64,000 nucleotides of DNA from Sphingopyxis sp. USTB-05 (GTDB taxonomy: Bacteria; Pseudomonadota; Alphaproteobacteria; Sphingomonadales; Sphingomonadaceae). The position numbers and the translations under genes are program-made. The number at the start of each line of letters is the position of its first letter. The stretch's first letter is position 1. Positions 1,069-16,795 of this stretch are shown here, in pieces. Below the pieces are notes generated by a model. It did no database searches, was not told the origin of the DNA, and saw only the letters and a list, made by a program, of their open reading frames with translations. The DNA lies in assembly GCF_023822045.1 (NCBI RefSeq), contig NZ_CP084712.1, positions 4,027,001 through 4,091,000 of the forward strand, given 5' to 3'.

Positions 1069-3456
1069 TCAGACCGTCCCTTTGGTTGTTTCGGGGGCCG
1101 AAGCGGGCGTGAAGATGCGGACACCGAAAACGGGGCCGCAACGTGTCGTGTCATTGGCCGGTTGGAAGCGAACCATGACGCTGTCCTTGCCGCGGGTCAG
1201 GTCGGCCGGGATCGGATAATCGATCGTGAAGAAGTCGCCGGGATGCCCGCCGTCGAGCGCCTGCGTCACGATCTTCGTCCCGTCGATGAGGATATCGAAC
1301 AGCTTGTTGCGCTCTTCGCCCCAATAGGTCGCCTGCAGGACGAGCGGACCGGGACGCACCTTCGCCCGATATTCGAAGAAGCCGAAAGTGCGCGCATCGC
1401 GCCCGTGGCGTCCACGATAGGTGACGGCATAGCTGTTCTTGGCGGTCAGCTCATGGTCGCGCTCGGGCTGCATTTCGCCGAGGTTCATCACGTCCACCGA
1501 ACGCCGCGCGAGATCCTGCTGCCGCGCATGTTCGGCAGCGAAGGCGACCTGCTCGCGCGCCCAGCCGGCGTCGTCGAAGCTTTTGAAATAGACCGCGGTG
1601 CGGCGATGACGCTGTTGGAAGAAAGGCGCGAAGCTGAGGTCGGCGGGCCGCGCGATGCCGGTGGTGCGAAACCGCCCGGCGGCGGCATCGACTGGCGCGA
1701 AACCCGCGAGCAGATCGGCAGCGACAAGCGCGGGGGCAGGCCCGTCGAATGGCCGGTCGGCCGGCCCGAGGTCGGCGGCGAGCACGACGGGACCGTGGAG
1801 CAGCGCGACGGTCGACGGATCATCATTCGCGCTTTCGCTGCGCAGCCGCATCGGCAGCGTCAGCGCGATGCGATCGCCCTTGGCCCAGCGGCGGCGGATC
1901 ACGGCATAATCGCCGGGAGTGCCGGCGGGCATAGGCTTGTCGTTCAACGTCAGCGTTGCGCCTTCGCACCAGCCCGGAATGCGTAGCGCGACCGCGAAGT
2001 CGCGCGGACGGTCCAGCGTTTCAAGCGTCAGGTCGATCCGCTCGCCGAACGGATAGGCGGTTTCCATGCGGAATGCCGCGCCCTGGCTTTCCCATGTCGC
2101 GGTCGATGCGATGTAGAGATTCACGAGCAGCGTATCGCCGCTCTGCCACCACACCGAATCGCCATGCTTGGCGTGGCTTTCCATCCCCGATCCGACGCAG
2201 CACCAGAAATCGTCGAAGGGCTTCGAGAATGTACGCGCCGTCCCCGACATGAGCGGCACCATATAGGCGAACATTCCCGTCGCCGGGTCCTGATGCGCAA
2301 GGATATGGTTGGTATGCGCGCGCTCATAATAATCGAACAGCCGGGCCTCGGGCCGCCAGCCATAGAGATGGCGAGTAAGCTTGAGCATATTATAGCTGTT
2401 GCAGCTTTCGCACGTCTGCTCGGTGATATGTTTCGAGATCGTCCGCGGCGCGGGGAAATATTCGCGGTCCGCGTTGCCGCCGATGACATAGCTATAGTCG
2501 CGGATCACGGTTTCCCAAAAGAAGCGCGCCGCATCGGCGTCGCCCGCCTTGCCGGTGAGTTCGTGCAGGCGGGCAAGGCCGATGATCTTCGGGATCTGGG
2601 TATTCGCATGGATCCAAGGCAGCGAATCCCTGCCTTCGCTTAGCGGATCGAGAACCTTGCGGTGGCGCAGCCGTTCGGCAAGGCGCAGCCAGCGCGGGTC
2701 TTTCGTCCGCGCGTGCAGTTCGGCGAAGCTTTCGTTGATCCCGCCATGTTCGCAATCGAGAACCTGCTGCACCTGCTGATCGTTCAGCGCGGCGAATACG
2801 CCGTCGATATAGGTGCCGAGCCCCGTCGCGACCGGCAGCGCCTTGGCATTGCCGCAAAGTTCCTGCGCATCGAACAACCCGGCGAACAATTTGTGCCAGT
2901 TGTAAAAGGGCACCCAGCAGCCGTTGAGGTCGAACCCCATCGAACGGATGTCGCCGCGTTTCAGTTCGGCGAAGATCGCCTTTCCGTCCTCGACCACATC
3001 GCCGCGCTTGCGCGTGAAGCCCGCGACATAGCCGTCGCCATGCGCCGCCTGTGCCGCGGCGAGTTCGCCCACGATATAGTCCGCGCGCCGCTTGCATTCC
3101 TCATCACCCGTCTGAGCGTACATCAACGATACGGCGGTCAGATAATGTCCCAGGCTGTGCCCGGCGATCGTGTCGCTTTCCCACCCGCCATAGACGGCTC
3201 CTTTGGGTTCGAGCCCGGCGCTGGTGCGGAAATTATGGAGCAGTCGGTCAGGTTCGAGCGCGTGCAGATAGCGCCGATTACCCTCGATTGCCTCGAGCCA
3301 AGGCGATTGAAGCAGCCGGACGGCGGAGAGCGGCAAGGGTTTGGCGGGACTGAAAGCAGATGCTGCGCCCGTCGCGGCGCGAGCCAAAACGGGGGCAAGC
3401 GCAATCGACGCGGCGCCCGCAAGCAGGGTACGGCGATCGACGTGCCATATTTGCAT
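1069..3456 (-). CDS. Exported GH127 family (DUF1680) glycoside hydrolase, probable beta-L-arabinofuranosidase
   Basis: 795-residue protein of the DUF1680/GH127 family, whose characterised members release beta-L-arabinofuranose; the best known act on arabinose chains attached to hydroxyproline of plant extensins. The start is a twin ATG at 3459/3456 behind AGGGGAG. I prefer 3456, because the first ATG is too close to that site. A twin-arginine-like signal (DRRTLLAG followed by a hydrophobic stretch ending LARA) predicts export. The family's zinc-thiolate centre is visible as E-S-C near residues 350-352 (in CESCNSYNM) and the adjacent pair Cys419-Cys420 in WCCVGSG, one of which would be the nucleophile. 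It is divergent from the reductase at 3563, and the promoter gap carries a GTATACGA element. Its neighbours are hydroxyproline catabolism genes, which suggests a hydroxyproline-linked arabinoside substrate. The exact sugar linkage is inferred. Confidence 0.85.
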   Translation of the reverse strand: MQIWHVDRRTLLAGAASIALAPVLARAATGAASAFSPAKPLPLSAVRLLQSPWLEAIEGNRRYLHALEPDRLLHNFRTSAGLEPKGAVYGGWESDTIAGHSLGHYLTAVSLMYAQTGDEECKRRADYIVGELAAAQAAHGDGYVAGFTRKRGDVVEDGKAIFAELKRGDIRSMGFDLNGCWVPFYNWHKLFAGLFDAQELCGNAKALPVATGLGTYIDGVFAALNDQQVQQVLDCEHGGINESFAELHARTKDPRWLRLAERLRHRKVLDPLSEGRDSLPWIHANTQIPKIIGLARLHELTGKAGDADAARFFWETVIRDYSYVIGGNADREYFPAPRTISKHITEQTCESCNSYNMLKLTRHLYGWRPEARLFDYYERAHTNHILAHQDPATGMFAYMVPLMSGTARTFSKPFDDFWCCVGSGMESHAKHGDSVWWQSGDTLLVNLYIASTATWESQGAAFRMETAYPFGERIDLTLETLDRPRDFAVALRIPGWCEGATLTLNDKPMPAGTPGDYAVIRRRWAKGDRIALTLPMRLRSESANDDPSTVALLHGPVVLAADLGPADRPFDGPAPALVAADLLAGFAPVDAAAGRFRTTGIARPADLSFAPFFQQRHRRTAVYFKSFDDAGWAREQVAFAAEHARQQDLARRSVDVMNLGEMQPERDHELTAKNSYAVTYRGRHGRDARTFGFFEYRAKVRPGPLVLQATYWGEERNKLFDILIDGTKIVTQALDGGHPGDFFTIDYPIPADLTRGKDSVMVRFQPANDTTRCGPVFGVRIFTPASAPETTKGTV

Positions 3457-3493
3457 CATGCTCCCCTGAGTCTTCGCTCGCCTTGGCAACAGC

Positions 3494-3515
3494 ATATTAT
3501 ATAGTATACGAATTT
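3494..3515. promoter_or_regulatory. Candidate operator (site 1) in a divergent promoter
   Basis: AT-rich block between the GH127 gene and the reductase gene, containing GTATACGA at 3504-3511 within TATATAGTATACGAATT. The same octamer occurs at 7070-7077 and 20139-20146, each time in a promoter gap. The natural candidate ligand is the FCD-type GntR regulator encoded at 9041-9688. This is inferred from position and shared sequence only. Confidence 0.55.
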
Positions 3516-3562
3516 AGCAAGCGGCTATAATGGCTCTTGGAACATTTGCTGTGAGAGCACCC

Positions 3563-4579
3563 ATGAACGACGAAAAAGTCCGACTTTCGCTGGATGAAGT
3601 GGCAGCGCTGTCGCGCGAAATCCTGACGCACCACGGGCTTGCGCCGCAGCATGTGGTGGCGGTGACCGAAACGATCGTCGCTGGCGAACGCGACGAATGC
3701 GCGAGTCACGGGATTTATCGCCTGCTCGTTTGCGTCAACACGCTGAAGACCGGCAAGGTGGTGAAGGACGCCGTGCCCATCGTGCAAGATGTGGCGCCCG
3801 CGCTGGTCCGGGTCGATGCGGGCGGCGGTTTTGCGCAAACCGCATTCGGGCAAGGGCTGCCGACCCTCGTCGAAAAGGCGCGGCACAATGGGATAGCTGC
3901 CCTCGGGATCAATAATTGCGTTCACTTCGCGGCACTCTGGCCCGAGGTCGAGGCGGTTGCAGCCGCGGGCCTTGTCGCCTTCGCCTGCACCCCCAGCCAC
4001 GCCTGGGTCGCGCCCGCTGGCGGCATCAAGCCGCTGTTCGGCACGAACCCGATAGCGTTCGGGTGGCCGCGCCCGGGCGATTATCCCTATGTCTTCGATT
4101 TCGCGACGAGCGCGGTCGCGCGCGGCGAGATCGAACTCCATCGCCGCGCGGGCAAGCCGATTCCCGAGGGCTGGGGCATCGATACCGAAGGACGCCCGAC
4201 AACCGATGCCAAGGCGGCGCTGGACGGCGCAATGCTGACCTTTGGCGGGCATAAGGGATCAGCGCTTGCGACGATGGTCGAACTGATCGCGGGTCCGCTG
4301 ATCGGCGATCTTACCAGCGCCGAATCGATCGCGCTCGATGATGGTGCGGGTTCATCGCCGATCGGCGGCGAATTCATCCTCGCGATCGATCCCGCGGGTT
4401 TCCTTGGCGCGGAGGCGGCAAAGCATATCGAACGTGCCGAGGCGGTTTTCGACGCCATCACCGGACAGGGTGCGCGGCTACCGTCGCAGCGCCGTTTCGA
4501 GGCGCGCGCGCGCAGCCTCGCGAACGGCGTACAGGTGCCGCGTCAACTCTACGACGACGTGCGCGCCCTGCTCGACTAG
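3563..4579 (+). CDS. Ldh2-family NAD(P)H-dependent oxidoreductase, possible delta1-pyrroline-2-carboxylate reductase
   Basis: 338 residues of the malate/lactate/ureidoglycolate dehydrogenase type (Ldh_2 fold, unlike classical Rossmann enzymes). Family segments include the N-terminal SLDEVAALSREIL, HGIYRL, the central GGIKPLFGTNPIAFGWP and the C-terminal GGHKGSALATMVEL. The start at 3563 is chosen over an in-frame ATG at 3530, because it matches the usual length of about 335 residues and has a GAGAG site upstream. Within hydroxyproline/proline catabolic clusters this family supplies cyclic-imine reductases that convert delta1-pyrroline-2-carboxylate to L-proline, an intermediate of trans-3-hydroxyproline breakdown. 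That role is inferred from context; malate or lactate dehydrogenase activity cannot be excluded. Its TAG stop overlaps the stop of the convergent peptidase gene at 4576. Confidence 0.8.
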   Translation: MNDEKVRLSLDEVAALSREILTHHGLAPQHVVAVTETIVAGERDECASHGIYRLLVCVNTLKTGKVVKDAVPIVQDVAPALVRVDAGGGFAQTAFGQGLPTLVEKARHNGIAALGINNCVHFAALWPEVEAVAAAGLVAFACTPSHAWVAPAGGIKPLFGTNPIAFGWPRPGDYPYVFDFATSAVARGEIELHRRAGKPIPEGWGIDTEGRPTTDAKAALDGAMLTFGGHKGSALATMVELIAGPLIGDLTSAESIALDDGAGSSPIGGEFILAIDPAGFLGAEAAKHIERAEAVFDAITGQGARLPSQRRFEARARSLANGVQVPRQLYDDVRALLD

Positions 4580-5778
4580 CCGAACGGCCGGTCGATCGCG
4601 GGCGAGGGTTCGGTGAACCACTTGGCGCCGCTCTCGGTCATATAGAAATGATCCTCCAGCCTGACGCCGAAGCGGTCGGGCAGGACAATCATGGGCTCAT
4701 TCGAAAAGCACATGCCGGGCGCGAGCGGCGTCGTGTCGCCGCGCACCAGATAGGCGGGCTCGTGGATCGACAGCCCGATACCGTGGCCCGTACGGTGCGG
4801 CAGGCCGGGCAGGCGATAATCCGGGCCGAGCCCCGCCTTTTCTAGCACCGCGCGCGCCGCGGCGTCGACCGACTCGCATGGTTCGCCGGGCAGCGCTGCG
4901 TCGAATGCCGCGGCCTGCGCTTCCTTTTCGAGCGACCAGATATGCCGCTGTTCCTCGGTCGCGTCGCCAAAGACATAGGTGCGCGTGATGTCCGAATGAT
5001 AGCCTTCGATGACGCAGCCGACGTCGATCAGCACGACCTCGCCCTCCCGCAACTCGGCGTCGCCCGGCAGTCCATGCGGGAACGCCGTCGAACGGCCGAA
5101 CTGGACGATGCAGAAGCTGTTGCCGGCCGGCGCCCCGATCGCACGGTGCGCTTCGTCGAGGAAACGCGTTACCTCGCTCGCGCGGATGCCGGGGGCAAGG
5201 ATGCGCGCGGCGCGGCGATGCACTTCGAGCGTCATCGACTTCGCCTGTTGGAGCAGCGCGAGTTCGGCCGCCGACTTCTGCATCCGGCATCCGTCGACGA
5301 TCGGGCCGCCATCGATGATATCGAGCGAAGGGCCCGCGCGCCGAATACGGTCGACAAACAGGAATGCCATCGCCGGATCGATCGCAAGCGTCGCCGCGCC
5401 GACGTCTTGCAAAGCGCCGACGACGAGCGCGGACGGGCTCTCGTCTTCCTCCCACAATCGCAATTCTACTTCGATCTTGAGGTCAGCCTCTAGCGTTCCG
5501 AGTTCGAACGCGGGCGCGATCACGATGGGTTTTCCCGTGCGCGGCAAGAGCATCGCGACGAGCCTTTCGCTTGCGCCCCACGGGATGCCGGCGAAATAGC
5601 GCAGGCTAGCGCCCGCCCCGATCAACAGCGCATCCGCGCCGTTCGCGTGCATCAGCCGCCGCGCCTTTTCGATGCGCTGCTCGCGTTCCGCCGCCGCGAT
5701 CGGCGCGGCGCGATTCGCCCAGAGGGTGATGTCGGCAAGTTCCTGTGCGGCGGTCGATCCGCCGATTCCATTGCTCAT
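4576..5778 (-). CDS. M24 family metallopeptidase (Xaa-Pro dipeptidase / creatinase fold)
   Basis: 400 residues with an N-terminal creatinase-like domain and a C-terminal pita-bread M24 domain. The two-metal site is complete: Asp in LIDVGCVIEGYHSD and the following HSDITRTY, His in TGHGIGLSIH, Glu in SNEPMI and Glu in RLEDHF. There is no signal peptide, so it is cytoplasmic. Members cleave Xaa-Pro dipeptides or N-substituted amino acids. It starts 1 nt after the stop of the D-amino-acid dehydrogenase gene (5780), a tightly coupled operon driven from the divergent promoter at 7055-7102. A prolidase beside hydroxyproline catabolism fits release of imino acids from Xaa-Pro/Xaa-Hyp dipeptides. Substrate is inferred. 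Confidence 0.85.
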   Translation of the reverse strand: MSNGIGGSTAAQELADITLWANRAAPIAAAEREQRIEKARRLMHANGADALLIGAGASLRYFAGIPWGASERLVAMLLPRTGKPIVIAPAFELGTLEADLKIEVELRLWEEDESPSALVVGALQDVGAATLAIDPAMAFLFVDRIRRAGPSLDIIDGGPIVDGCRMQKSAAELALLQQAKSMTLEVHRRAARILAPGIRASEVTRFLDEAHRAIGAPAGNSFCIVQFGRSTAFPHGLPGDAELREGEVVLIDVGCVIEGYHSDITRTYVFGDATEEQRHIWSLEKEAQAAAFDAALPGEPCESVDAAARAVLEKAGLGPDYRLPGLPHRTGHGIGLSIHEPAYLVRGDTTPLAPGMCFSNEPMIVLPDRFGVRLEDHFYMTESGAKWFTEPSPAIDRPFG

Positions 5779-5779
5779 G

Positions 5780-7054
5780 TCAGGCTCCAAAACGCTTGAG
5801 GTCGAAGGGGGAAAGATCGAAGGGCGGCGCGTCGCCCGTAACCAGCGCGGCAATAGCATCGCCGGTGGTCGCCGCGAGGGTCAGGCCCAGATGCTGGTGC
5901 CCGAACGCATAGAAAAGGTTCGCTGCACGGTCGCTCCGCCCGATCGCGGGCAGATAGTCGGGCAAGGTCGGCCGCGCGCCCATCCATTCGGCACCGGGCA
6001 GGCCGAATGACAGGCCAAGCGCCGCGACATGGCTGCGCAGCCGCGCCCATTTGCGCGGATCGGCGGGGCTGGCGCCGCGGCCGAATTCGACGAAGCTCGC
6101 GGCGCGCAGTCCCGAGCGAAAACGGGTGACGATCATCGACCGGTCCTCGAATACGACCGGCGGCATGCCCTGCGGCCATCCGGTATCCGCCGACTGGATG
6201 TGATAGCCACGCTCGGCGATGATCGGCACACGCTGGCCGATCGACGCCATCAGCGCCCCTGACCCGGCGCCGCCCGCGATCACCATTGCATCGGCGGCGT
6301 GGTGCGCCCCGTCGGCGGCTATGGCGATGGCACGACCATCCTCAATCTTCAGGCGGTCGATCTTCGTTTCGATTCGCAAGCCCCCGGCGGCGTCGAATGC
6401 GGCGCGTAGCGCCCTGCCCAGCGCATCAAGGTCAGCGATCTGGCCCGATCCCGAAATATGCACCGCGCCGCCTATTGCGACTGAGGTGAGTGCCGCCAAC
6501 TGTTCCAGCTCGGCCGGCGTTGCATCGCGCATATGCGCTTGCCCGATGTCGGTCGTCGCCCAATGCGCGCGGCCCGCTTGGGCGCTCTCTTCGCTTTCCC
6601 AAAGGATGAAATGGCCATCCTCGATCAAGAGGTCGCTTGCTCCGATTCGGTTCAGCAGCCGGCGCCACGCACCCATCGCATCGCCAAGCACCTCGCCAAG
6701 TGCCTTTCGTCCCGCCGCGAAGCGCGCGGGGCGCGTCGCCGCGACCAGCCGAAGGGAAAAGGGCAGCCAGGCGCCGATATCGCGCCACGGCAAGGACAAC
6801 GCCCCGCCGCGCCAGAACAGGCGGCGCGGCATCGAGCGGATCGTCGCGCGCGATGCGAGCGGTTCGACCTGTTCGATGGCGATATGCCCCGCATTGCCCC
6901 ATGATGCGGCAGGGGATGCCGGGGGCGAATCGATCAATATGACTGAAATACCACGCTTTTGCAGCGCGATCGCGGTGGCGAGTCCGACGACGCCGCCGCC
7001 GATTACGACGGCATTTTGCGGGTTGGACGGGCGGGATGGAAAATCATTTGGCAT
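5780..7054 (-). CDS. FAD-dependent D-amino acid dehydrogenase, probable D-hydroxyproline dehydrogenase
   Basis: 424-residue DadA-like flavoprotein. The dinucleotide-binding motif GGGVVGLATAIAL is near residue 18. The C-terminal part carries the conserved WMGARPTLPDYLPAIG and GHQHLGLTLAATTG segments that close the FAD site. In 4-hydroxyproline degradation the epimerase makes cis-4-hydroxy-D-proline, which a flavin dehydrogenase oxidises to delta1-pyrroline-4-hydroxy-2-carboxylate. This gene faces the deaminase and epimerase genes across a shared promoter, making that step the likely role. Some clusters use a three-subunit dehydrogenase; here only one DadA-like subunit is seen. General D-amino acid oxidation is the alternative. 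Confidence 0.82.
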   Translation of the reverse strand: MPNDFPSRPSNPQNAVVIGGGVVGLATAIALQKRGISVILIDSPPASPAASWGNAGHIAIEQVEPLASRATIRSMPRRLFWRGGALSLPWRDIGAWLPFSLRLVAATRPARFAAGRKALGEVLGDAMGAWRRLLNRIGASDLLIEDGHFILWESEESAQAGRAHWATTDIGQAHMRDATPAELEQLAALTSVAIGGAVHISGSGQIADLDALGRALRAAFDAAGGLRIETKIDRLKIEDGRAIAIAADGAHHAADAMVIAGGAGSGALMASIGQRVPIIAERGYHIQSADTGWPQGMPPVVFEDRSMIVTRFRSGLRAASFVEFGRGASPADPRKWARLRSHVAALGLSFGLPGAEWMGARPTLPDYLPAIGRSDRAANLFYAFGHQHLGLTLAATTGDAIAALVTGDAPPFDLSPFDLKRFGA

Positions 7055-7080
7055 CTTGTATCATATACCGTATACGATCC
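7055..7080. promoter_or_regulatory. Candidate operator (site 2) in a divergent promoter
   Basis: The 48-nt gap between the dehydrogenase start (7054) and the deaminase start (7103) holds GTATCATATACCGTATACGA, with the self-complementary CGTATACG at 7069-7076. The octamer GTATACGA (7070-7077) is shared with sites 1 and 3. The location is ideal for simultaneous control of both halves of the hydroxyproline cluster, probably by the GntR protein at 9041. Confidence 0.6.
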
Positions 7081-7102
7081 GAAGCTTCAACGGAGGTAAT
7101 GA

Positions 7103-8017
7103 ATGAGCGTGATAAGGACACTGTGGGAAGGCGTATATCCCGCAGCTACCACTCAATTCGCCGAAGATCTGTCGGTCGATTATGATGCAACCCAGCGTGT
7201 GCAGAGCGCGCTTGTCGACGACGGGGTGACCGGGCTCATCATTCTCGGCACGTGCGGCGAGAATAATTCGCTCGAACCCGACGAAAAGCGCAACATACTC
7301 CAGGGCGCGGTCGAGGCGGTCGCGGGGCGCGTGCCCATCGTCGCCGGTGTGTCCGAATTCACCACGGCGCGCGCGATCCAATATGCGAAGGACGCCGAAA
7401 AGCTGGGTGCCGATGCGATCATGTTGCTCCCCGCCATGGTCTATGTGCCGACGCCCGAGGAACTGCAGGCGCATTTCCGTGCGGTGGCTGAAGCGACCTC
7501 GCTGCCGATCATGCTCTATAACAACCCGCCCGCGTACCGTGTCGACGTCGATTTCGCGACGCTCGAGGCGCTGCGCGACGTGTCCAATATCGTCGCGATC
7601 AAGGAAAGCGCGCCCGATCCGCGCCGCTTCACCGACGTGTTCAACCGCTTCGGCGACCGCTATACGGTGATGGCAGGGCTCGACGACGTCGCGCTCGAAG
7701 GCCTGTTCCTCGGCGCCAGCGGCTGGGTCTCGGGCCTGACCAGCGCCTTCCCGACCGAATCTGTCCGTCTTGTCGAAGCGTTCAACGAGGGCAAATATGA
7801 CGAGGCGCTGGCGATCTATCGCTGGTTCATGCCGCTGCTTCACCTCGACGCCGATCATGATTTGGTCCAGTCGATCAAGCTCGCCGAAGAAATCATGGGG
7901 CGCGGCTCCGAACGCGTCCGCATGCCGCGCCTGCCGCTCGCCGGCCAGCGCCGCAAGGATGTGATCGCGATGGTCGAAAAATGCGCGGCGACCCAGCCAA
8001 GCAAGATCGCGGCATAA
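7103..8017 (+). CDS. DHDPS-family lyase, probable delta1-pyrroline-4-hydroxy-2-carboxylate deaminase
   Basis: 304-residue TIM-barrel protein of the dihydrodipicolinate synthase / N-acetylneuraminate lyase family. The Schiff-base lysine is Lys167 (VAIKESA) and the conserved tyrosine is Tyr139 (IMLYNNPP). A strong site (GGAGG) precedes the ATG. In hydroxyproline catabolism a member of this family deaminates and dehydrates pyrroline-hydroxy-carboxylate to alpha-ketoglutarate semialdehyde. Assignment to that step rests on the adjacent epimerase and dehydrogenase, because the family is functionally broad. The next enzyme, alpha-ketoglutarate semialdehyde dehydrogenase, is not in the window. It is first gene of the operon continuing with epimerase, regulator and permease. 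Confidence 0.82.
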   Translation: MSVIRTLWEGVYPAATTQFAEDLSVDYDATQRVQSALVDDGVTGLIILGTCGENNSLEPDEKRNILQGAVEAVAGRVPIVAGVSEFTTARAIQYAKDAEKLGADAIMLLPAMVYVPTPEELQAHFRAVAEATSLPIMLYNNPPAYRVDVDFATLEALRDVSNIVAIKESAPDPRRFTDVFNRFGDRYTVMAGLDDVALEGLFLGASGWVSGLTSAFPTESVRLVEAFNEGKYDEALAIYRWFMPLLHLDADHDLVQSIKLAEEIMGRGSERVRMPRLPLAGQRRKDVIAMVEKCAATQPSKIAA

Positions 8018-8034
8018 AGGGCCAGGGAGCGTCC

Positions 8035-9033
8035 ATGCGCCACACTTTCTTCTGCATCGACGGCCACACTGCCGGAAATCCGGTCCGGCTGGTCGCCGGT
8101 GGCGCGCCGCTCGTCCGCGGAGGGTCGATGGGCGAGCGGCGTCAGGATTTTCTCGATCGGTTCGACTGGATCCGGACCAGCCTCTGCTTCGAGCCGCGCG
8201 GGCATGACATGATGTCGGGCGGGTTTCTTTACCCGCCCACCCAGCCGGACAGCGACATCGGCATATTGTTCATCGAAACGAGCGGCTGCCTTCCGATGTG
8301 CGGCCACGGGACGATCGGCCTTGTCACCTTCGGGCTCGAGAACGGGCTGATCACCCCGCGCGTGCCCGGCAAGCTGCGCGTCGAGGTTCCGGCGGGTATC
8401 ATCGATATCGAATATGGCACAGAGGGCGACCGTGTGTCGTGGGTGCGCATCCGCAACGTCCCCTCCTATCTCGCGGCCGAGGGCATCGAAATCGACGTCC
8501 CCGGCTTTGGCCGGCTAAAGGTCGATGTCGCATATGGCGGCAATTATTACGCGATCATCGAGCCCCAGGGTCCGTATATCGGTCTTGAGGCGCTCGGTGC
8601 GTCGCGGATCGTCGATCTGAGCCGCACCATAAGGTCGCTGATGCAGGCCGCGTACGAACCGGTACATCCCGTTGACGACCGTATCCGTGGCATCAGCCAT
8701 GTCATGTGGACCGACCGGCCCAAGGGCGAAGGCGCCGACGGCCGCAACGCGGTCTTTTATGGCGAACGCGCGATCGATCGCAGCCCTTGCGGTACGGGCA
8801 CGTCAGCGCGGATGGCGCAGCTCGTTGCCAAGGGACGGCTGCAGGTTGGCGACCATTTCGTCCACGAAAGCTATATCTGCAGCCGCTTCATCGGCCGGGT
8901 CGAGGACAGCGCGATGCTCGGTGATACGCCGGGCATCATTCCCTCGATCGAAGGGTCGGCGATCGCCACCGGATTCAACACGATCTGGGTCGATCACGCT
9001 GACAGCTTCTGGAATGGATTTTCGGTGCTATGA
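8035..9033 (+). CDS. 4-hydroxyproline 2-epimerase (proline racemase family)
   Basis: 332 residues. Both catalytic cysteines of the proline racemase fold are present: Cys89 in LPMCGHGTIG and Cys252 in DRSPCGTGTSA. In this family two cysteines mark racemases/epimerases, whereas trans-3-hydroxyproline dehydratases carry Thr at the second site, so this is most likely the epimerase that interconverts trans-4-hydroxy-L-proline and cis-4-hydroxy-D-proline. The start is an ATG at 8035 with GGGAG 5 nt upstream, 17 nt after the deaminase stop. It is the most diagnostic enzyme of the island. The regulator gene follows 7 nt downstream. Confidence 0.88.
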   Translation: MRHTFFCIDGHTAGNPVRLVAGGAPLVRGGSMGERRQDFLDRFDWIRTSLCFEPRGHDMMSGGFLYPPTQPDSDIGILFIETSGCLPMCGHGTIGLVTFGLENGLITPRVPGKLRVEVPAGIIDIEYGTEGDRVSWVRIRNVPSYLAAEGIEIDVPGFGRLKVDVAYGGNYYAIIEPQGPYIGLEALGASRIVDLSRTIRSLMQAAYEPVHPVDDRIRGISHVMWTDRPKGEGADGRNAVFYGERAIDRSPCGTGTSARMAQLVAKGRLQVGDHFVHESYICSRFIGRVEDSAMLGDTPGIIPSIEGSAIATGFNTIWVDHADSFWNGFSVL

Positions 9034-9040
9034 GGCTGTT

Positions 9041-9688
9041 ATGAGCCTCATCATCAGAAACCTGTCCGACCAGCTGGTGGACCTTGTCCGCGACCGCATC
9101 CTTTCGGGTGCCGTTTCCAGCGACCATGCAATCCGTCAGGACGCACTCGCGGCCGAACTCGGCGTCAGCAAGATACCGCTGCGCGAGGCGCTCGCGCGTC
9201 TCGAAGAGGAAGGGCTGGTCCGCTCGCAGGCGAACCGCGGCTTCTTCGTCCGGCCACTCAGCGCCGAAGAGGCGCGGGAAGTTTATGAGCTGCGCATCAA
9301 GCTGGAGCCCGAGGCGACCGCGCTCGCCGCGCTCCGCGCCACCGAGGCCGACCACGCCCACGCGATCGAAACGCTCGAAACGCTTGACCATGTCACCGAC
9401 GAACATGGCGACGGCGTCGGCGCCTTTAACCGCGCGTTTCACCGCGCGCTGTTCCGCCCGTGCGGCCAGCCGATCACAGTCAGCATTCTCGAGCGCCTGC
9501 AGGTGCTGTCCGAACGTTATGTCCGCGTCCATCTCGAACCGCTCGGACGCGACGAGCGCGCGAACGAAGAACATCACCAGCTACTCGAAGCCTGGCTGGC
9601 GCGCGACGCCGGCAAGATCACGGTGCTGGTCGATGCGCATATCCGCAAGACACTCGACGATCTGCGTCAGCAACTCGTCGACGGCTGA
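9041..9688 (+). CDS. GntR family transcriptional regulator, FCD (FadR-like) subfamily
   Basis: 215 residues. The N-terminal winged helix-turn-helix spans roughly 10-75, with the GntR signature LAAELGVSKIPLREALARLE. The C-terminal all-helical FCD ligand domain has the characteristic ELRIKLEPEAT and FHRALF segments and histidines that usually bind a metal and an organic acid. The gene lies between the epimerase and permease genes in one operon, so it probably senses a pathway intermediate and regulates the island. FCD regulators bind short dyads, and the repeated GTATACGA element in the island's promoters is the obvious candidate. Repression rather than activation is typical but not shown. Confidence 0.88.
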   Translation: MSLIIRNLSDQLVDLVRDRILSGAVSSDHAIRQDALAAELGVSKIPLREALARLEEEGLVRSQANRGFFVRPLSAEEAREVYELRIKLEPEATALAALRATEADHAHAIETLETLDHVTDEHGDGVGAFNRAFHRALFRPCGQPITVSILERLQVLSERYVRVHLEPLGRDERANEEHHQLLEAWLARDAGKITVLVDAHIRKTLDDLRQQLVDG

Positions 9689-9735: not shown

Positions 9736-11169
9736 GTGGCATCAGGTTTGTTCGGGCCGGTAAAGCCCATCGCGGTCGCGCAGCAGGAGGCGGGGCATAG
9801 CCTGCGCGCCACGCTGAGCTGGCCGCATCTCGTCGCGCTCGGGGTGGGCGCGATCGTCGGGACCGGCATCTATACATTGACCGGCGTCGGCGCCGAGAGG
9901 GCGGGCCCCGCGGTGATCCTGGCCTTTGCGATCGCGGGCGCGGTCTGCGCCTGCGCCGCGCTCGCCTATGCCGAACTCGCGACGATGATCCCCACATCGG
10001 GCAGCGCCTATACCTACACCTATTCGGTGCTCGGTGAGACGCTCGCCTGGATCGTCGGGTGGAGCCTGATCCTCGAATATTCGCTGGCCTGTTCGACCGT
10101 CGCAGTCGGCTGGTCGGGCTATCTGGTCGGCTGGATCCAGTCGGCGGGCATCCATCTGCCGCCCGCCCTGCTGTCCGGCCCGCACGCCGGCGGCATCGTC
10201 AACCTGCCCGCGGTCCTCGTCGCGCTCGGCGTGGCGGGCATGCTGATGGCCGGGACGCGCGAGAGCGCGACGCTCAACATCATCCTCGTGGTCATCAAGC
10301 TTGTCGCGCTGTCGATCTTCGTCGCCTTTGCAGCGCCCGCTTTCAACGCCGACAATCTCCAACCCTTCATGCCCTATGGCTTTGCCAGCCATGTCGACGC
10401 GAGCGGCGCGACCAAGGGAGTGATGGCCGCTGCCGCGATCGTCTTCTTCGCCTTTTACGGCTTTGACGCGGTTGCGACCTCGGCCGAGGAAACGAAGAAT
10501 CCCAAGCGCGACCTGACGATCGGTATCATCGGGTCGATGGCGATCTGCACGCTCATCTATATGCTCGTCGCGATCAGCGCGGTCGGCGCGATGCATTATA
10601 CGACGCTCGGCAATTCGCCCGAACCGCTGGCGCTGGTGCTCCGCACGCTCGGCCACCCGGCCGCCTCGCACCTCGTCGCGCTGGCAGCGCTCATCGCGTT
10701 GCCGTCGGTCATCCTCGTAATGATGTACGGGCAGAGCCGCGTCTTCTTCGTGATGAGCCGCGACGGCCTGCTGCCGCGATCGTTGAGCCGCGTGTCCGCA
10801 CGCACGGGCACGCCGGTGTTCGTCACCGGCGTGACGGGTGTCTTCGTCGCGGCCGTGGCCGGCTTCTTCCGCCTCGATGAAATCGCCGAACTGGCCAATG
10901 CCGGCACGCTGATCGCCTTCATCGCGGTCGGCGTCTGCCTGATGGTACTGCGCAAGAAGGCACCCGACCTGCCGCGCGTGTTCCGCTGCCCGGCGCCCTA
11001 TGTGGTCGGCACGCTCGCGGTGCTCGGCTGCCTCTATCTGCTGTTCAGCCTGCCCAGCATGACGCTGGTCCGCTTTCTCGGATGGAACATCCTCGGCGTC
11101 CTCGTCTATCTCGCTTATGGCCGCGCGCGCAGCCTCGCGCGGCGCGATCAGGCGGTGGTGGGGATCTGA
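9736..11169 (+). CDS. APC superfamily amino acid permease
   Basis: 477 residues from a GTG at 9736, preceded 7 nt upstream by GGGAGGA. About twelve hydrophobic segments follow a short cytoplasmic N-terminus. The first membrane helix carries the family's unwound motif GAIVGTGIYTLTG, and PTSGSAYTYTYSVLGE follows. Resembles cationic amino acid/YfnA-type inner-membrane permeases. As last gene of the hydroxyproline operon it most likely imports hydroxyproline or a related amino acid from the periplasm. Substrate is inferred from context. A hairpin at 11209-11240 lies downstream. Confidence 0.85.
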   Translation: MASGLFGPVKPIAVAQQEAGHSLRATLSWPHLVALGVGAIVGTGIYTLTGVGAERAGPAVILAFAIAGAVCACAALAYAELATMIPTSGSAYTYTYSVLGETLAWIVGWSLILEYSLACSTVAVGWSGYLVGWIQSAGIHLPPALLSGPHAGGIVNLPAVLVALGVAGMLMAGTRESATLNIILVVIKLVALSIFVAFAAPAFNADNLQPFMPYGFASHVDASGATKGVMAAAAIVFFAFYGFDAVATSAEETKNPKRDLTIGIIGSMAICTLIYMLVAISAVGAMHYTTLGNSPEPLALVLRTLGHPAASHLVALAALIALPSVILVMMYGQSRVFFVMSRDGLLPRSLSRVSARTGTPVFVTGVTGVFVAAVAGFFRLDEIAELANAGTLIAFIAVGVCLMVLRKKAPDLPRVFRCPAPYVVGTLAVLGCLYLLFSLPSMTLVRFLGWNILGVLVYLAYGRARSLARRDQAVVGI

Positions 11170-11208: not shown

Positions 11209-11240
11209 AGGGCTATGGTGCAGCGATGCCCCATAGCCCT
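11209..11240 (+). terminator. Hairpin, probable terminator of the permease operon
   Basis: A perfect 10-bp inverted repeat, AGGGCTATGG and CCATAGCCCT, separated by 12 nt and followed by TTCGCTTTCC. It lies 40 nt after the permease stop. The tail is only moderately T-rich, so termination strength is uncertain. Confidence 0.5.
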
Positions 11241-11265
11241 TTCGCTTTCCGGGTTGCGCGCCCTG

Positions 11266-11277
11266 CGATCGTATATC
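11266..11277. promoter_or_regulatory. Weak operator-like element (site 4) upstream of the second gamma-glutamyltransferase
   Basis: GATCGTATA at 11267-11275 is the reverse complement of TATACGATC, nine bases identical to site 2. It lacks the full GTATACGA octamer. Its position about 65 nt before the gene suits a regulatory site, but the match is weaker than at sites 1-3. Confidence 0.3.
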
Positions 11278-11340
11278 AAATCCGGTCTTGCTATCGCGCC
11301 CGCATCTCGCAGAATGATTTTTTCACGAGGATTTGAATTC

Positions 11341-13182
11341 ATGCATCGTCGCACACTCCTTGCCGCCGTTCCGGCCGCCGCACTGCTGCCGACCACGGGT
11401 TTCGCACAGGGCGGCCAGCCCAAGCCCGCGCCCAAGGCGAGCGGGTCGGTACCGCCGCTGTGGGAGGCGGGCGAGGACCGTTTCGTCCGGCCCGACGTTC
11501 AGGGCGGCGACCGCCCGGTCGGGGCGAGCTTTGCCTCGCGCACCGCGGCCTATGGTCTCCATGGTGCCGCCGGCACCGCGCATCCGCTCGCAACGCAGGC
11601 GGGCATCGACATTTTGAAGCGCGGCGGGTCGGCGGTCGATGCGGCGATCGCGATCAATGCATGCCTCGGCCTCCTCGAACCGACCGCGAACGGCATCGGC
11701 GGCGACGTCTATGCAATGATCTGGGACCCGAAGACGAAGAAGCTCGCCGGGCTTGCGGGATCGGGGAAAAGCCCGCGCGGGCTCGACCTCGCAACGGTGC
11801 GGTCGCGCGCCAAGGGCGGGACATTGCCCGCTTATGGCGCGATCAGCGTTTCGGTTCCGGGCGCTGTCGACGGCTGGTGGACGATGCACCAGCGTTACGG
11901 AAAACTGCCGTGGAAAGAGTTGTTCGAACCCGTCATCGCGCATGCCGAGGCCGGCGCGCCGGTGCCCGACATGATCGCTTATTATATCCGCCGCGCGCTC
12001 GCCAATTTCCGCCAGCCCGGTCGCGGGATCGAGGAAATCGACAATGCGATGCGCACCTGGGGCGTCAATGACGGCAAGGGACCGAATGCGGGGCAGGTGT
12101 TCCGCAACCCCGACCTGGCGCGCACCTTCCGCCTGATCGCCGAAGGCGGCCGCGACGCATTCTACTCTGGCGAGATCGCGCGGACCATCGACAGCTATTT
12201 CAAGCGGATCGGCGGCTGGCTGCGCTACGAGGATCTTGCCGCGCACAAGTCGGAATGGATCGAGCCGCACAAGACCGGTTATCGCGGCACCGACGTCTAT
12301 GCGCTCGGCGCGAATACGCAGGGCATCGCGACGCTGCAGATGCTGAACATTCTCGAGAATTTCGACCTGAAGGGCGCCGGCTTCCAGTCGGCGCTGTCGA
12401 TCCATTTGCAGGCCGAGGCCAAGCGCCTCGCCTATGAGGATCGCGCGCGTTACTATGCCGATCCGCATTTCGCCAATGTTCCGGTCGAATGGCTCATCTC
12501 AAAGGATTATGCGGCCGAGCGCGCGAAGCTGATCCGTCCCGACCGTTTGCTGTCGCCGGTCTATCCGGGGAAAGCCCCGAGCCGCGGCGACACCACCTAT
12601 TTCAGCTGCGCCGACAAGGACGGCATGATGGTGTCGATGATCCAGTCGAACTTCCGCGGCATGGGATCGGGACTCGTCGCCGACGGGCTCGGCTTCATGT
12701 TCCAGGATCGCGGGCAATTGTTCAGCTTGGCTGACGGTCATCCCAATATTTATGCGCCGGGCAAGCGGCCGTTCCAGACGATCATTCCGGGTTTCGCCGC
12801 ACGCGGCGACGTGCCGTGGATGAGCTTTGGCGTGATGGGCGGGGACATGCAGCCGCAGGGCCAGGCGCAGATCGTCATCAACCGCGTCGATTATGGGCTG
12901 GAGATCCAGGCGGCGGGCGACTCGCCGCGCTGGCACCATGAGGGGTCGTCCGAGACGATGGGCGAGGATTCGCCCGATGACGGCATCAATGGCGTGCTGC
13001 GGCTCGAAAGCGGCGTGCCCGCGGCGACGCAGCGGCAACTGGCCGACATCGGCTGGACTCTGGGCGAGTCCGATGGCGGCTTCGGGCGCTATCAGTGCGT
13101 CGAACATCGCATGGACGGCAAGACGCGCGTCTATGCCGCGGCCAGCGAGATGCGCGCGGATGGGTGTGCGCTGGCTTATTGA
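11341..13182 (+). CDS. Exported gamma-glutamyltransferase
   Basis: 613 residues with a signal peptide at 1-22 (ends GFAQ). The large-subunit segment contains GGSAVDAAIAINA and GIGGDVYAMI. The predicted autoprocessing and nucleophile threonine is Thr418 in SRGDTTYFSCADKDG; most relatives have TTH, here TTY. The small subunit continues with GSGLVADGLGFMFQDRG. Start ATG at 11341 behind ACGAGG. The enzyme hydrolyses or transfers gamma-glutamyl groups in the periplasm. It is the second family member in the window and stands after the hydroxyproline operon, with its own upstream region holding a weak island-type operator. It is convergent with the DUF885 gene. Confidence 0.9.
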   Translation: MHRRTLLAAVPAAALLPTTGFAQGGQPKPAPKASGSVPPLWEAGEDRFVRPDVQGGDRPVGASFASRTAAYGLHGAAGTAHPLATQAGIDILKRGGSAVDAAIAINACLGLLEPTANGIGGDVYAMIWDPKTKKLAGLAGSGKSPRGLDLATVRSRAKGGTLPAYGAISVSVPGAVDGWWTMHQRYGKLPWKELFEPVIAHAEAGAPVPDMIAYYIRRALANFRQPGRGIEEIDNAMRTWGVNDGKGPNAGQVFRNPDLARTFRLIAEGGRDAFYSGEIARTIDSYFKRIGGWLRYEDLAAHKSEWIEPHKTGYRGTDVYALGANTQGIATLQMLNILENFDLKGAGFQSALSIHLQAEAKRLAYEDRARYYADPHFANVPVEWLISKDYAAERAKLIRPDRLLSPVYPGKAPSRGDTTYFSCADKDGMMVSMIQSNFRGMGSGLVADGLGFMFQDRGQLFSLADGHPNIYAPGKRPFQTIIPGFAARGDVPWMSFGVMGGDMQPQGQAQIVINRVDYGLEIQAAGDSPRWHHEGSSETMGEDSPDDGINGVLRLESGVPAATQRQLADIGWTLGESDGGFGRYQCVEHRMDGKTRVYAAASEMRADGCALAY

Positions 13183-13262: not shown

Positions 13263-15059
13263 TCAGGACGCAGGGGCGCTGGCGACCTCCGGCAGCGCAG
13301 GGTTAAAGCCGGGCGGGTTGACCCCGCCGTCGGCGATGAACTGGTCGAGCCGCGCCTCGAGCACCGGCAGCGGCACCGAACCCAGCGCGAGGATCGCATC
13401 GTGGAAGTTGCGCTGGTCGAACTTGTCGCCGAGCGCGGCCTCGGCCTCGGCGCGCTTGCGGCGGATCAGCATCTCGCCGAGCTTGTAGGCGAGCGCCTGT
13501 CCGGGCCACGCGATATAGCGGTCGATCTCGGTCGTGATCTCATGTTCGGACAGCGCGGTATTGCCGCGCAGATAGTCCTGCGCCTGCTGACGGCTCCAGC
13601 CATAATGGTGGATGCCGGTGTCGATCACGAGCCGCGACGCGCGCCACATCTCATAGGAGAGGCGGCCGAAATCCTCGTACGGCGTCTCATACATGCCAAG
13701 CTTGCTGCCCATCCATTCCCAATAGAGTGCCCACCCCTCGCCATAGCCCGAAAAACCGGTGCCGCGTCGGAAGGCCGGGCGCCGCGTCGCTTCCTGCGCG
13801 ACCGCCGACTGGAAGCTGTGGCCGGGATTGCATTCGTGGATGGTAAGCGCCGTTAATGTATAGAGCGGCCGCGACGGCAGATCATAGGTGTTCATCAGGC
13901 AGCTTTCGAGCCCGCCGCGCCCGCCCGTATAGATCGGCGCCAGCGCCGGCGGTACCGGCAGGATCGCAAAGCGGCGCCGCGGCAGGAAGCCGATCGTCTC
14001 GGGCAGCTTCGCGTCCATCCGCTTCGCGACATAAGATGATTTGGCGAGCAGCTCGTACGGCGTCTTGGGATAGAATTGCGGGTCGGTGCGCAGGAATTTC
14101 AGGAACGCCGGCATGTCGCCCTTGAAGCCGGTGCTCGCCTTGACCTGCTCCATTTCGGCCTTGATTCGCGCGACTTCCTTGAGCCCCATCTGGTGAATCT
14201 GCTCGGGGGTCAGGTCGAGTGTCGTGAAACCCTTGATCTGCGCCTGGTAAAAGGCCTTGCCGTCGGGCTGTTTTTCACCCGCCAGGGTGGTGCGCGCCTT
14301 CTTCATATAGTCATCGCGGATGAAGGCGTAGAGTTTGGCATAGGCGGGCGCGACGGTCTCGCGGATCACTTTCTCGCCCTCGGCGCGCAGCGACGCCTGT
14401 TCGGCGGCGGGGATCGTCGAGGGCATTTCCTTGAACGCGTCGTAGAAGCTGTTGGTCTGGTCGGCGGGCAGGTACGGCTTGATCGTCACGTCGCGTCCCT
14501 GCACCGCGATCTGCGGCACGCTGAACCCGCGCGCGAGGCCGGCGCGCATATTCGCGGTCTGCTCGTCGAAGAAACGCGGGATGTCGCGCATCCGGGCGAT
14601 ATAGTTGCGATAGGCCTGCGCGGTCGCGAACCCGCCGCTGCGCGGGTTCAGCCCCGACCAGAAGAAGGTGTCGGCGTTGAAGGGCGCCTCATAGGTCTTA
14701 TATTTGATGTCGTTCGCCATCGTTTCGATCGACTGGCGGAACACCGCTGCGTTGATCTTTTCCTCGGGCGAAAGTTGGTCGACGGGGATCGCGTCGAGTT
14801 CGGCGAGCGCCTTGGTCCAGTAATCGAGCCGCGCCTTCTGCGTCGCGGCGTCGACCTTGGGCAGATGGGTCGGGCCGTCGCCGTCGCCGCCGCGCCCGCT
14901 GCGCAAGCCCTGTTGCTGGCGCCAATCCCATTCGCGCTCGTACAGCGCCTTGAGCCGCGCATCGGCATTGGCCGACGTAGGCGACTGTGCAATCGCCGCC
15001 TGCGCGGTGAAGGCCGCCAGCGCCAGCGCGATCGTCCGCGCCACCGAAACTCCGTTCAT
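13263..15059 (-). CDS. Exported DUF885 family protein, putative metallo-carboxypeptidase-like hydrolase
   Basis: 598 residues with a signal peptide at about 1-23 (ends AAIAQ). The DUF885 domain covers the rest. Its metal-binding-like motif HECNPGHSFQ lies near residue 400, with a downstream glutamate in the GYGEGWALYWE segment, a pattern shared with M32-type carboxypeptidases. Twin ATGs at 15062/15059 follow GGGAGAAG; the second has better spacing. DUF885 proteins are widespread exported hydrolases of sphingomonads, and most have unknown substrates. Its position between gamma-glutamyltransferase, amidohydrolases and a TonB receptor supports a role in periplasmic peptide breakdown. It is last of a minus-strand run with the amidohydrolase at 15085. 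Confidence 0.82.
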   Translation of the reverse strand: MNGVSVARTIALALAAFTAQAAIAQSPTSANADARLKALYEREWDWRQQQGLRSGRGGDGDGPTHLPKVDAATQKARLDYWTKALAELDAIPVDQLSPEEKINAAVFRQSIETMANDIKYKTYEAPFNADTFFWSGLNPRSGGFATAQAYRNYIARMRDIPRFFDEQTANMRAGLARGFSVPQIAVQGRDVTIKPYLPADQTNSFYDAFKEMPSTIPAAEQASLRAEGEKVIRETVAPAYAKLYAFIRDDYMKKARTTLAGEKQPDGKAFYQAQIKGFTTLDLTPEQIHQMGLKEVARIKAEMEQVKASTGFKGDMPAFLKFLRTDPQFYPKTPYELLAKSSYVAKRMDAKLPETIGFLPRRRFAILPVPPALAPIYTGGRGGLESCLMNTYDLPSRPLYTLTALTIHECNPGHSFQSAVAQEATRRPAFRRGTGFSGYGEGWALYWEWMGSKLGMYETPYEDFGRLSYEMWRASRLVIDTGIHHYGWSRQQAQDYLRGNTALSEHEITTEIDRYIAWPGQALAYKLGEMLIRRKRAEAEAALGDKFDQRNFHDAILALGSVPLPVLEARLDQFIADGGVNPPGFNPALPEVASAPAS

Positions 15060-15084
15060 CATCTTCTCCCTTTGCCCGTCCGGT

Positions 15085-16731: not shown

Positions 16732-16758
16732 GCAATCGGGCCTTCCATCAGCAGAAAC

Positions 16759-16795
16759 AAAAAGGCCGGCGGAGCAGGGACGCACCGCCGGCCGG
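16759..16795 (-). terminator. Rho-independent terminator after the TonB receptor gene
   Basis: On the minus strand a 9-bp perfect stem (GGCCGGCGG with CCGCCGGCC, 12-nt loop) is followed by TTTTTGTTTC. This is a textbook terminator shape located directly downstream of the receptor stop and before the amidohydrolase start. Confidence 0.8.

Follow-up and report, generated by a model that had tools for sequence, protein, structure and literature searches.

The window analysed here is a stretch of 64,000 nucleotides from Sphingopyxis sp. USTB-05, and coordinates without a locus or genome prefix are positions within it. Open reading frames, together with Pfam and NCBIfam family scans, identified a GH127/146-type glycosidase gene beside genes of hydroxyproline catabolism, an arrangement that recurs in relatives and in which a shared palindrome, ATATCGTATACGATAT, precedes both the glycosidase gene and the hydroxyproline genes. 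From left to right, the order is GH127/146-type enzyme (−), Ldh_2 (+), M24 peptidase (−), DadA-like (−), DHDPS-like (+), hydroxyproline epimerase (+), GntR/FCD regulator (+), permease (+) and gamma-glutamyltransferase (GGT)-type hydrolase (+), with DUF885 (−), amidohydrolase (−) and TonB receptor (−) genes at the right end. An initial annotation had assigned a smaller gene set to positions 1069 to 9688. All the genes that it named are present as open frames, and the motifs on which it relied, an intact E-S-C/Cys-Cys centre in the glycosidase and two cysteines in the epimerase, hold. Its gene list nevertheless omitted Ldh_2 (3530-4579, +), its right boundary cut off the permease, and the set reaches further on both sides. 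The central features are:

1069..3459, minus strand: GH146-type beta-L-arabinofuranosidase of clan GH-P (PF07944, 410 bits; PF20736; DUF6805); the longest open reading frame is 1069-3495, with a likelier start near 3459
3501..3512, no strand: operator-like palindrome ATAGTATACGAA between the GH146 and Ldh_2 genes, with two mismatches to the 12-mer described below
3563..4579, plus strand: Ldh_2-family reductase, probable Delta1-pyrroline-2-carboxylate reductase (PF02615); the longest open reading frame starts at 3530
4576..5859, minus strand: M24 Xaa-Pro peptidase, prolidase-like (PF00557, PF01321); likelier start near 5778
5780..7054, minus strand: FAD-dependent DadA-type D-amino-acid dehydrogenase, probable cis-4-hydroxy-D-proline dehydrogenase (PF01266)
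7067..7078, no strand: operator-like palindrome ACCGTATACGAT between the DadA and DHDPS genes, with one mismatch to the 12-mer
7103..8017, plus strand: DHDPS-family enzyme, probable 1-pyrroline-4-hydroxy-2-carboxylate deaminase (PF00701)
7981..9033, plus strand: 4-hydroxyproline 2-epimerase (NCBIfam PRK13971); likelier start near 8035
9041..9688 (about), plus strand: GntR/FCD regulator, probable HypR-type repressor (PF00392, PF07729); the open reading frame is overcalled from 8672
9760..11169 (about; start guessed), plus strand: APC amino-acid permease, probable proline/hydroxyproline uptake (PF13520)

The initial annotation took the glycosidase for a GH127 enzyme of the HypBA1 type. The Pfam GH127 model spans both GH127 and GH146, and comparison with solved chains separated the two: the window glycosidase scored 474.8 bits against 5OPJ, 174 against Bll3HypBA1 (GH146) and 160 against a third GH146 chain, versus at most 92 bits against chains named GH127 or similar and 43.7 bits against HypBA1. 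A structure search with an AlphaFold2 model (predicted local distance difference test [pLDDT] 86.4) agreed. The best Foldseek matches were 5opj, 6yqh and 8qf8, with template modelling (TM) scores of 0.76-0.78 and 34-35% identity, and ranks 1-6 were all GH146 entries, while GH127-type entries shared only 17-21% identity (HypBA1, 18%). The HypBA1 assignment was therefore rejected. An identity as aceric acid hydrolase was also ruled out, the partial match scoring 83 bits against a cut-off of 950. The enzyme carries the motifs T-C-E-S-C-N-S-Y-N and W-C-C, and E351, C353, C420 and C421 (796-residue numbering) are invariant in two alignments, A1 and A2. We take these positions to have the roles assigned in GH-P enzymes, namely the Cys nucleophile and the Cys3-Glu zinc ligands, and we take 5OPJ to be BT0349 of Bacteroides thetaiotaomicron, which fits both searches. 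These data place the window glycosidase in the GH146 type, with a predicted Cys nucleophile and Cys3-Glu zinc centre; its Tat-like N-terminus suggests that it is probably periplasmic. The idea that its substrate is hydroxyproline-linked arabinose survives the change of family because published GH146 enzymes cleave this bond: XeHypBA1 mainly hydrolyses Araf-beta1-Hyp (beta-linked L-arabinofuranose on hydroxyproline), and the substrate of Bll4HypBA1 is Araf-beta1-linked hydroxyproline on a protein backbone (PMC10850190). Hydrolysis of beta-L-arabinofuranose from hydroxyproline is, by analogy, the activity proposed for the window GH146.

Evidence for a conserved association came from a sample of 199 genomes of the family (Sphingomonadaceae), in which GH127/146 relatives were called at E values of at most 1e-60. 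A GH127/146 relative was found in 19 genomes, the epimerase in 24, and both in 16. The epimerase was thus present in 16/19 genomes with the glycosidase versus 8/180 without it (Fisher p=4e-15, kinship ignored). In 13 of the 16 genomes with both genes, glycosidase and epimerase lie 2.1-10.7 kb apart; in two others (G083 and G182) they are on separate contigs, and in G029 the only glycosidase is a distant one, on another contig than the epimerase. Linked loci differ in gene order between genomes, and GH146, Ldh_2 and DUF885 genes are consecutive, with 4-nt overlaps, in five genomes (G032, G112, G125, G163 and G175). A public set, consisting of the best 80 of 592 loci, gave an Ldh_2 gene in 20/80 loci; 16 of these 20 have it downstream of GH146 in the same orientation, and in 14 the GH146 stop is at most 50 nt from the Ldh_2 match. 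The initial annotation had left the association to stand or fall with relatives and with co-regulation; on the first count it stands, since the association recurs in them.

The linked glycosidases fall within a single clade. One hundred GH146 rows, 20 from family genomes (after four duplicates of the public set were dropped) and 80 public, were labelled by their flanking genes: 34 as hydroxyproline-linked, four as Ldh_2 only and 62 as neither; a gene more than 10 kb away, or lost to a short contig, escapes these labels. Epimerase is the basis of 29 of the 34 linked labels (nine in family genomes within 11 kb, 20 in public loci at >350 bits). A tree of 99 rows, built by a quick method after one short row was dropped, placed all 34 linked rows in one 64-row clade with a Shimodaira-Hasegawa-like approximate likelihood ratio test (SH-aLRT) value of 98; none was found among the 19 rows of the sister clade or the 16 of an outer group (Bacteroidota, Verrucomicrobiota and others). 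On this tree, a minimum of 13 label changes is needed. Beyond sphingomonads, the linked set includes Nitrospirillum, two Azospirillum records, Niveispirillum, a Caulobacter assembly and Acetobacter malorum. All 34 linked enzymes have the signature T-C-E-[SHG]-C-N (His in 21, Ser in 11, Gly in two), together with E-x-C-N-x-Y and W-C-C. At the variable position, unlinked rows have His (12) or Ser (five), Ala occurs in 18 rows, none of them linked, and in 10 unlinked rows the signature motif is not matched at all. Six Duganella loci inside the clade (L108, L109, L111, L112, L113 and L126) have T-C-E-A-C-C in place of T-C-E-x-C-N and no hydroxyproline genes in their flanks, and the substrate of these enzymes may differ.

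Other GH146 copies in the same genomes, which serve as an internal control, adjoin a rhamnogalacturonan I (RG-I) lyase (PL11), or GH51 and arabinonate-dehydratase-type genes. At L069/L070 and L093/L094, the surroundings are those of a pectin locus: sister-clade GH146 genes adjoin a large TonB receptor gene and an RG-I lyase (PL11) gene. Two near-identical GH51-GH146-aldehyde dehydrogenase blocks (L097 and L098) lie near opposite ends of the 0.9-Mb contig G052:C2, each about 11 kb from a DUF5695 match.

Two divergent intergenic regions, at about 3460-3562 and 7055-7102 if the likelier start codons are used, both contain a GTATAC core. The two-promoter cluster of the initial annotation fits these two regions. 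A sigma-70 scan was uninformative (two found versus 2.1 expected), and a terminator scan likewise gave no signal above shuffles, but each region carries an operator-like palindrome. GTATAC alone is not enriched in the window: three occurrences compare with 1.7 expected, and 22 of 100 shuffles reach that number. The motif therefore carries weight only in combination with its flanks and its recurrence across genomes. In the mapped neighbourhoods of relatives, too, this core is found immediately upstream of cluster genes. Forty-seven GTATAC-core sites near cluster genes yield the palindrome WATATCGTATACGATATW, of which only the flanks count as evidence since the sites were selected by the core. 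With up to two mismatches, the 12-mer ATCGTATACGAT was found in 25/34 linked GH146 promoters versus 0.4 expected from 10 mononucleotide shuffles of each. It was found in 3/4 promoters of Ldh_2-only rows and 7/27 of the remainder (26 clade members plus the short row), and in none of the 19 sister-clade or 16 outer-group promoters. At the same threshold, 21 hydroxyproline regions contained 61 sites versus 13.7 under a Markov null, 51 of them within 300 nt of a called gene start, and 11 control regions contained 14 versus 7.7. The whole 4.68-Mb genome has 84 such places versus 25 for a reversed control. Only four places have at most one mismatch, two of them in the locus, including 7067-7078. The sole exact 12-mer of the genome is at the ProC-like and aldehyde dehydrogenase genes of the locus, at the start of the ProC-like gene (L038:2994-3953), which precedes the aldehyde dehydrogenase gene. 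Collectively, the operator argues for co-regulation of GH146 and the hydroxyproline genes.

The palindrome resembles those of known hydroxyproline regulators. Sites of HypR, a repressor that controls hydroxyproline genes, have GT and AC separated by a 2-nt spacer (PMC4494728), and the GT-N2-AC spacing found here is the same, although the letters are not those of the HypR motif described for S. coelicolor (PMC6608401). The locus has two marks of a HypR regulon, a regulator with GntR and FCD domains and a FadR-type palindrome before the target genes. The local GntR/FCD protein is the putative binder of the palindrome.

The remaining genes of the set, and a third GTATAC core, lie to the right of the permease:

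11215..13182, plus strand: gamma-glutamyltransferase-family hydrolase with a Tat-like signal (PF01019, 465 bits)
13263..15110, minus strand: DUF885 protein, peptidase-like, with a signal-like N-terminus (PF05960, 497 bits; HECNPGH motif)
15085..16785, minus strand: amidohydrolase, weakly prolidase-like, with a signal-like N-terminus (PF01979)
16807..19737, minus strand: TonB-dependent receptor, possible outer-membrane peptide uptake (PF00593, PF07715)
20139..20144, no strand: GTATAC core, the third in the window, lying upstream of the gene for the TonB receptor and close to where an amidohydrolase open reading frame (20003-21691) begins, with more than two mismatches to the 12-mer

To the left of the window, on the glycosidase strand, are a further GGT-like gene, two genes for DUF885 proteins and one for an S10-like peptidase; further left, on the opposite strand, are the ProC-like gene and the aldehyde dehydrogenase gene (L038:3269-5542). 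The latter lies about 6.5-8.7 kb left of the window, and its product is 59% identical to the counterpart beside another hydroxyproline locus. The four families that carry out the steps of trans-4-hydroxyproline catabolism are therefore together, with the epimerase, D-amino-acid dehydrogenase and DHDPS-type enzyme in the window and the aldehyde dehydrogenase to its left; their activities here are predicted from sequence. The epimerase scored 533.8 bits against PRK13971 (cut-off 376), with intact M-C-G-H-G-T and P-C-G-T-G motifs whose cysteines we presume to be catalytic. The DadA-like protein scored 133 bits against PRK00711 (D-amino acid dehydrogenase), below the cut-off of 383, and the permease matched TIGR00909 under its cut-off. 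The best solved relative of the Ldh_2 protein was 1wtj (250 bits), which has Delta1-piperideine-2-carboxylate reductase among its names. For the DHDPS-type enzyme, a search of solved structures could not tell a deaminase from enzymes with other DHDPS roles, so the deaminase role rests on neighbourhood; the gene adjoins the epimerase gene in most mapped neighbourhoods. The amidohydrolase at 15085..16785 best matched solved proteins named "Possible prolidase" and "Xaa-Pro Dipeptidase" (50-52 bits). A DUF885 cluster was found in 16/32 mapped regions, and a TonB-receptor homologue in 6/32. By eye, signal-like N-termini were present in the glycosidase, GGT, DUF885 and amidohydrolase proteins, and none was evident in the M24, DadA, DHDPS, Ldh_2 and epimerase proteins, a pattern that suggests a periplasmic half and a cytoplasmic half of the set.

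We consider it likely that these genes form one HypR-type regulon for feeding on arabinosylated hydroxyproline-rich plant protein. The genes, their families, the conserved linkage and the shared operator motif are the basis of this proposal, within which the catalytic activities, the transport steps and the pairing of regulator with operator are predicted. The TonB receptor would bring glycopeptides into the periplasm, where the exported GH146 would remove beta-L-arabinofuranose from hydroxyproline by means of the Cys nucleophile, with zinc held by Cys3-Glu. Deglycosylation would unshield the hydroxyproline-rich chain, allowing it to be cut by DUF885, the amidohydrolase and other peptidases, and the APC permease would import hydroxyproline, proline or dipeptides, from which the cytoplasmic M24 prolidase would release free imino acids. 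The epimerase would then form cis-4-hydroxy-D-proline, the DadA-like enzyme would oxidise this product, and the DHDPS-like deaminase would yield alpha-ketoglutarate semialdehyde, which the aldehyde dehydrogenase would convert to 2-oxoglutarate; Ldh_2 would salvage pyrroline-2-carboxylate to proline. The GntR/FCD regulator would probably repress the whole set via ATATCGTATACGATAT until released by hydroxyproline. The initial annotation had inferred a similar sequence of stripping, cleaving and burning. In outline this is supported by linkage over many genera and by the shared operator motif, though not in the GH127 family to which the stripping step had been assigned.

The fate of the sugar bears on this model. 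L-arabinose isomerase was not found in the own genome by a search that was positive in 5/14 controls, and no close relative of arabinonate dehydratase was found there, the best match being 35% identical to a sphingomonad arabinonate-dehydratase-type enzyme. Given the absence of both, and with the search limited to these two routes, arabinose is probably not the prize, and its removal probably serves to free hydroxyproline. DUF5695, which is frequent in linked relatives, was not found in the own genome by an alignment profile that hit 7/24 genomes; this profile was used because controls gave no match in a search with the PF18951 model. With neither DUF5695 nor a close relative of the GH43 enzyme of linked loci, the organism probably deals with short chains or divides the task with other organisms.

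Several observations weigh against a single regulon of this kind. The GH43 of linked loci has a best match of only 35% (82 bits) in the own genome, and annotation of the locus revealed no such gene; processing of Ara4-Hyp may therefore be incomplete. Three other sampled genomes of the window's genus have neither GH127/146 nor the epimerase. Nine of the 34 linked promoters lack a site at up to two mismatches, and in the window the site at 3501..3512, between GH146 and Ldh_2, could serve Ldh_2 alone; in G099, an exact 12-mer lies 31 nt from the GH146 start, and Ldh_2 was not found in the mapped region. Five of the 34 linked labels derive from deaminase plus permease, dehydrogenase or a cut epimerase. 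The 64-row clade includes 26 other rows with neither hydroxyproline genes nor Ldh_2 in their flanks, some of them on short contigs. Finally, in a search of 29 whole genomes, four of them labelled linked, the epimerase was close in 15, a distant homologue only in 11 and absent from three. The 15 include the genomes of four sister-clade rows (L144, L145, L147 and L155), so genome-wide presence of the epimerase is not by itself a marker of the clade.

It has to be considered whether the glycosidase trims beta-arabinofuranose from pectic arabinan (RG-I) and is merely a metabolic neighbour of the hydroxyproline genes. BT0349, the solved B. thetaiotaomicron GH146, sits in an RG-I locus (PMC10850190), and the pectin-type surroundings of the family's other GH146 copies fit such a role. 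Those copies, however, form a separate clade in which neither hydroxyproline linkage (0/19) nor the operator (0/19) was found, and Ala between the zinc-ligand Glu and the Cys is confined to unlinked rows, while Ser, His or Gly occupies this position in 34/34 linked ones. Together with the missing isomerase and close dehydratase, these data make a role in pectic arabinan unlikely. A little less probable still is a general proline/hydroxyproline cluster, for example for collagen peptides, in which the glycosidase is a chance acquisition or arrived when the block as a whole was transferred horizontally. Known HypR regulons do handle collagen (PMC5343134), and 8/24 epimerase genomes of the family have no GH127/146 match; yet the linkage persists through differing gene orders, the GH146-Ldh_2-DUF885 operons are tight, and the operator precedes GH146 in most linked loci.

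Of greater weight, although still clearly the lesser possibility, is that the same pathway serves a food other than extensin, be it arabinosylated small signalling peptides, arabinogalactan proteins or hydroxyproline-rich wall proteins of algae. Many linked relatives carry DUF5695, whose weak model is PL27-like and so recalls rhamnose release from gum arabic, and several add GH43, GH27 or GH2 enzymes. However, DUF5695 is absent from the own genome and the GH146 precedents act on extensin-type Ara-Hyp; extensin and other hydroxyproline-glycoprotein substrates are inseparable by sequence.

The linked relatives extend the gene set in several directions, adding GH43, GH27, GH2, DPP-IV-type peptidases and DUF5695. 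The last was found in 21/34 linked loci (18 public ones at >500 bits, and G112, G168 and G175), and each of its places in the seven genomes hit by the profile is within about 12 kb of a GH146 gene. One example, L117:1258-4026, has 14 homologues (alignment A3) and recurs beside GH146. The DUF5695 model is weak (pLDDT 69); its best structural match was the PL27 enzyme BACCELL_00875 (E 4e-22, TM 0.48/0.64), and the profile matched BACCELL_00875 alone marginally (E 1.4e-4). PL27 enzymes release rhamnose from gum arabic (PMC8377490). DUF5695 may thus be a PL27-like enzyme family, which we regard as a lead only. In the searched literature, DUF5695 was named in a single paper, on fungal velvet regulators. 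At a GH146 locus of Cohnella silvisoli (Bacillota; L176), relatives of the epimerase (42%) and of DUF5695 lie nearby, as does a DHDPS-type gene, suggesting that the linkage may reach past Proteobacteria.

Xanthomonas is a member of the family of Lysobacter, in which a GH127/146 relative was found in 33/198 genomes, the best homologues being 47-55% identical to the window GH146. Among 17 loci of 12-20 kb each, searched at E 1e-12, a GH43 of the linked-sphingomonad kind was present in nine (57-64% identical in eight, a 47% piece in one) and Ldh_2 in six. Neither epimerase nor deaminase was found nearby in any of the 17, a further point against the regulon model. One locus of this family, L220:2-4411, has a 1469-residue open reading frame with an MGH1-like glycosidase domain that adjoins GH43 and GH146; its agreement with the published HypBA2 (GH121) is confined to size and position.

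There are clear parallels with systems described previously. XeHypBA1 (XCV2724) of Xanthomonas euvesicatoria, which acts with XeHypAA (GH43) and XeHypBA2 (GH121), is of the same enzyme type and acts on hydroxyproline-linked arabinose; the comparison made here was with homologues from the family of Lysobacter. It is called GH127 in PMC6085000 and GH146 in PMC10850190. One difference is that the xehypBA2-xehypAA operon is raised by HrpX (PMC6085000), and the word "epimerase" does not occur in the text of that paper. A GH43 partner close to that of linked relatives, as expected of the extensin-degrading HypBA1/BA2/AA system, was not found in the own genome. HypBA1 of Bifidobacterium longum (GH127) shares the clan GH-P fold and a zinc bound by Cys3-Glu (PMC10850190), a centre that is predicted from sequence for the window enzyme. 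The B. longum system supplies arabinose as a carbon source (PMC6085000), whereas hydroxyproline is the apparent prize here. BT0349 belongs to the closest solved structure group (5OPJ/6YQH/8QF8), with the C-terminal domain matched too, but its RG-I locus (PMC10850190) has no hydroxyproline regulon.

The closest regulatory parallel is with the GntR-type HypR regulons of Proteobacteria and Streptomyces, which share the regulator type, a hypE-hypO-hypD-hypH-like core, prolidases, a TonB receptor and the GT-N2-AC palindrome (PMC5343134, PMC4494728). In other Proteobacteria these regulons include collagenases, proline peptidases and a TonB receptor (PMC5343134). Where the published regulons reach upstream to collagenases, a predicted plant-protein arabinosidase is found here instead; the word "arabinofuranosidase" does not occur in PMC5343134. 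The set is very likely one HypR-type regulon that includes a predicted deglycosylase of plant protein, in parallel to the collagenase HypR regulons, and would extend such hydroxyproline regulons to arabinosylated glycoproteins of plants. No published account of a linkage between GH146 and hydroxyproline catabolism was found in the open-licence PMC literature, a search in which most matching papers were left unopened and RegPrecise was outside the scope. In PMC12542648, the epimerase and an arabinofuranosidase are merely two separate Sinorhizobium genes in a table. A literature search for an extensin serine alpha-galactosidase found no matching paper.

More broadly, the evidence leans slightly towards a plant-cell-wall branch of HypR regulons, in which hydroxyproline catabolism would have gained a dedicated GH146 clade (T-C-E-[SHG]-C-N), DUF885 and, in 21/34 loci, DUF5695. 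Its members, sphingomonads with four Azospirillaceae loci and single Caulobacter and Acetobacter cases, would dismantle arabinosylated plant glycoproteins and consume their protein backbone instead of the sugar. In plant walls, hydroxyproline-rich glycoproteins form a tough fraction that contains nitrogen, and little was found in the searched literature on bacterial use of the protein part. Since one operator ties together the glycosidase clade, the peptidases and the catabolic pathway, a single binding or induction experiment would test the whole idea, and the DUF885 and DUF5695 families become testable on a concrete substrate. For sphingomonads, the linkage offers a genomic marker for feeding on plant glycoproteins.

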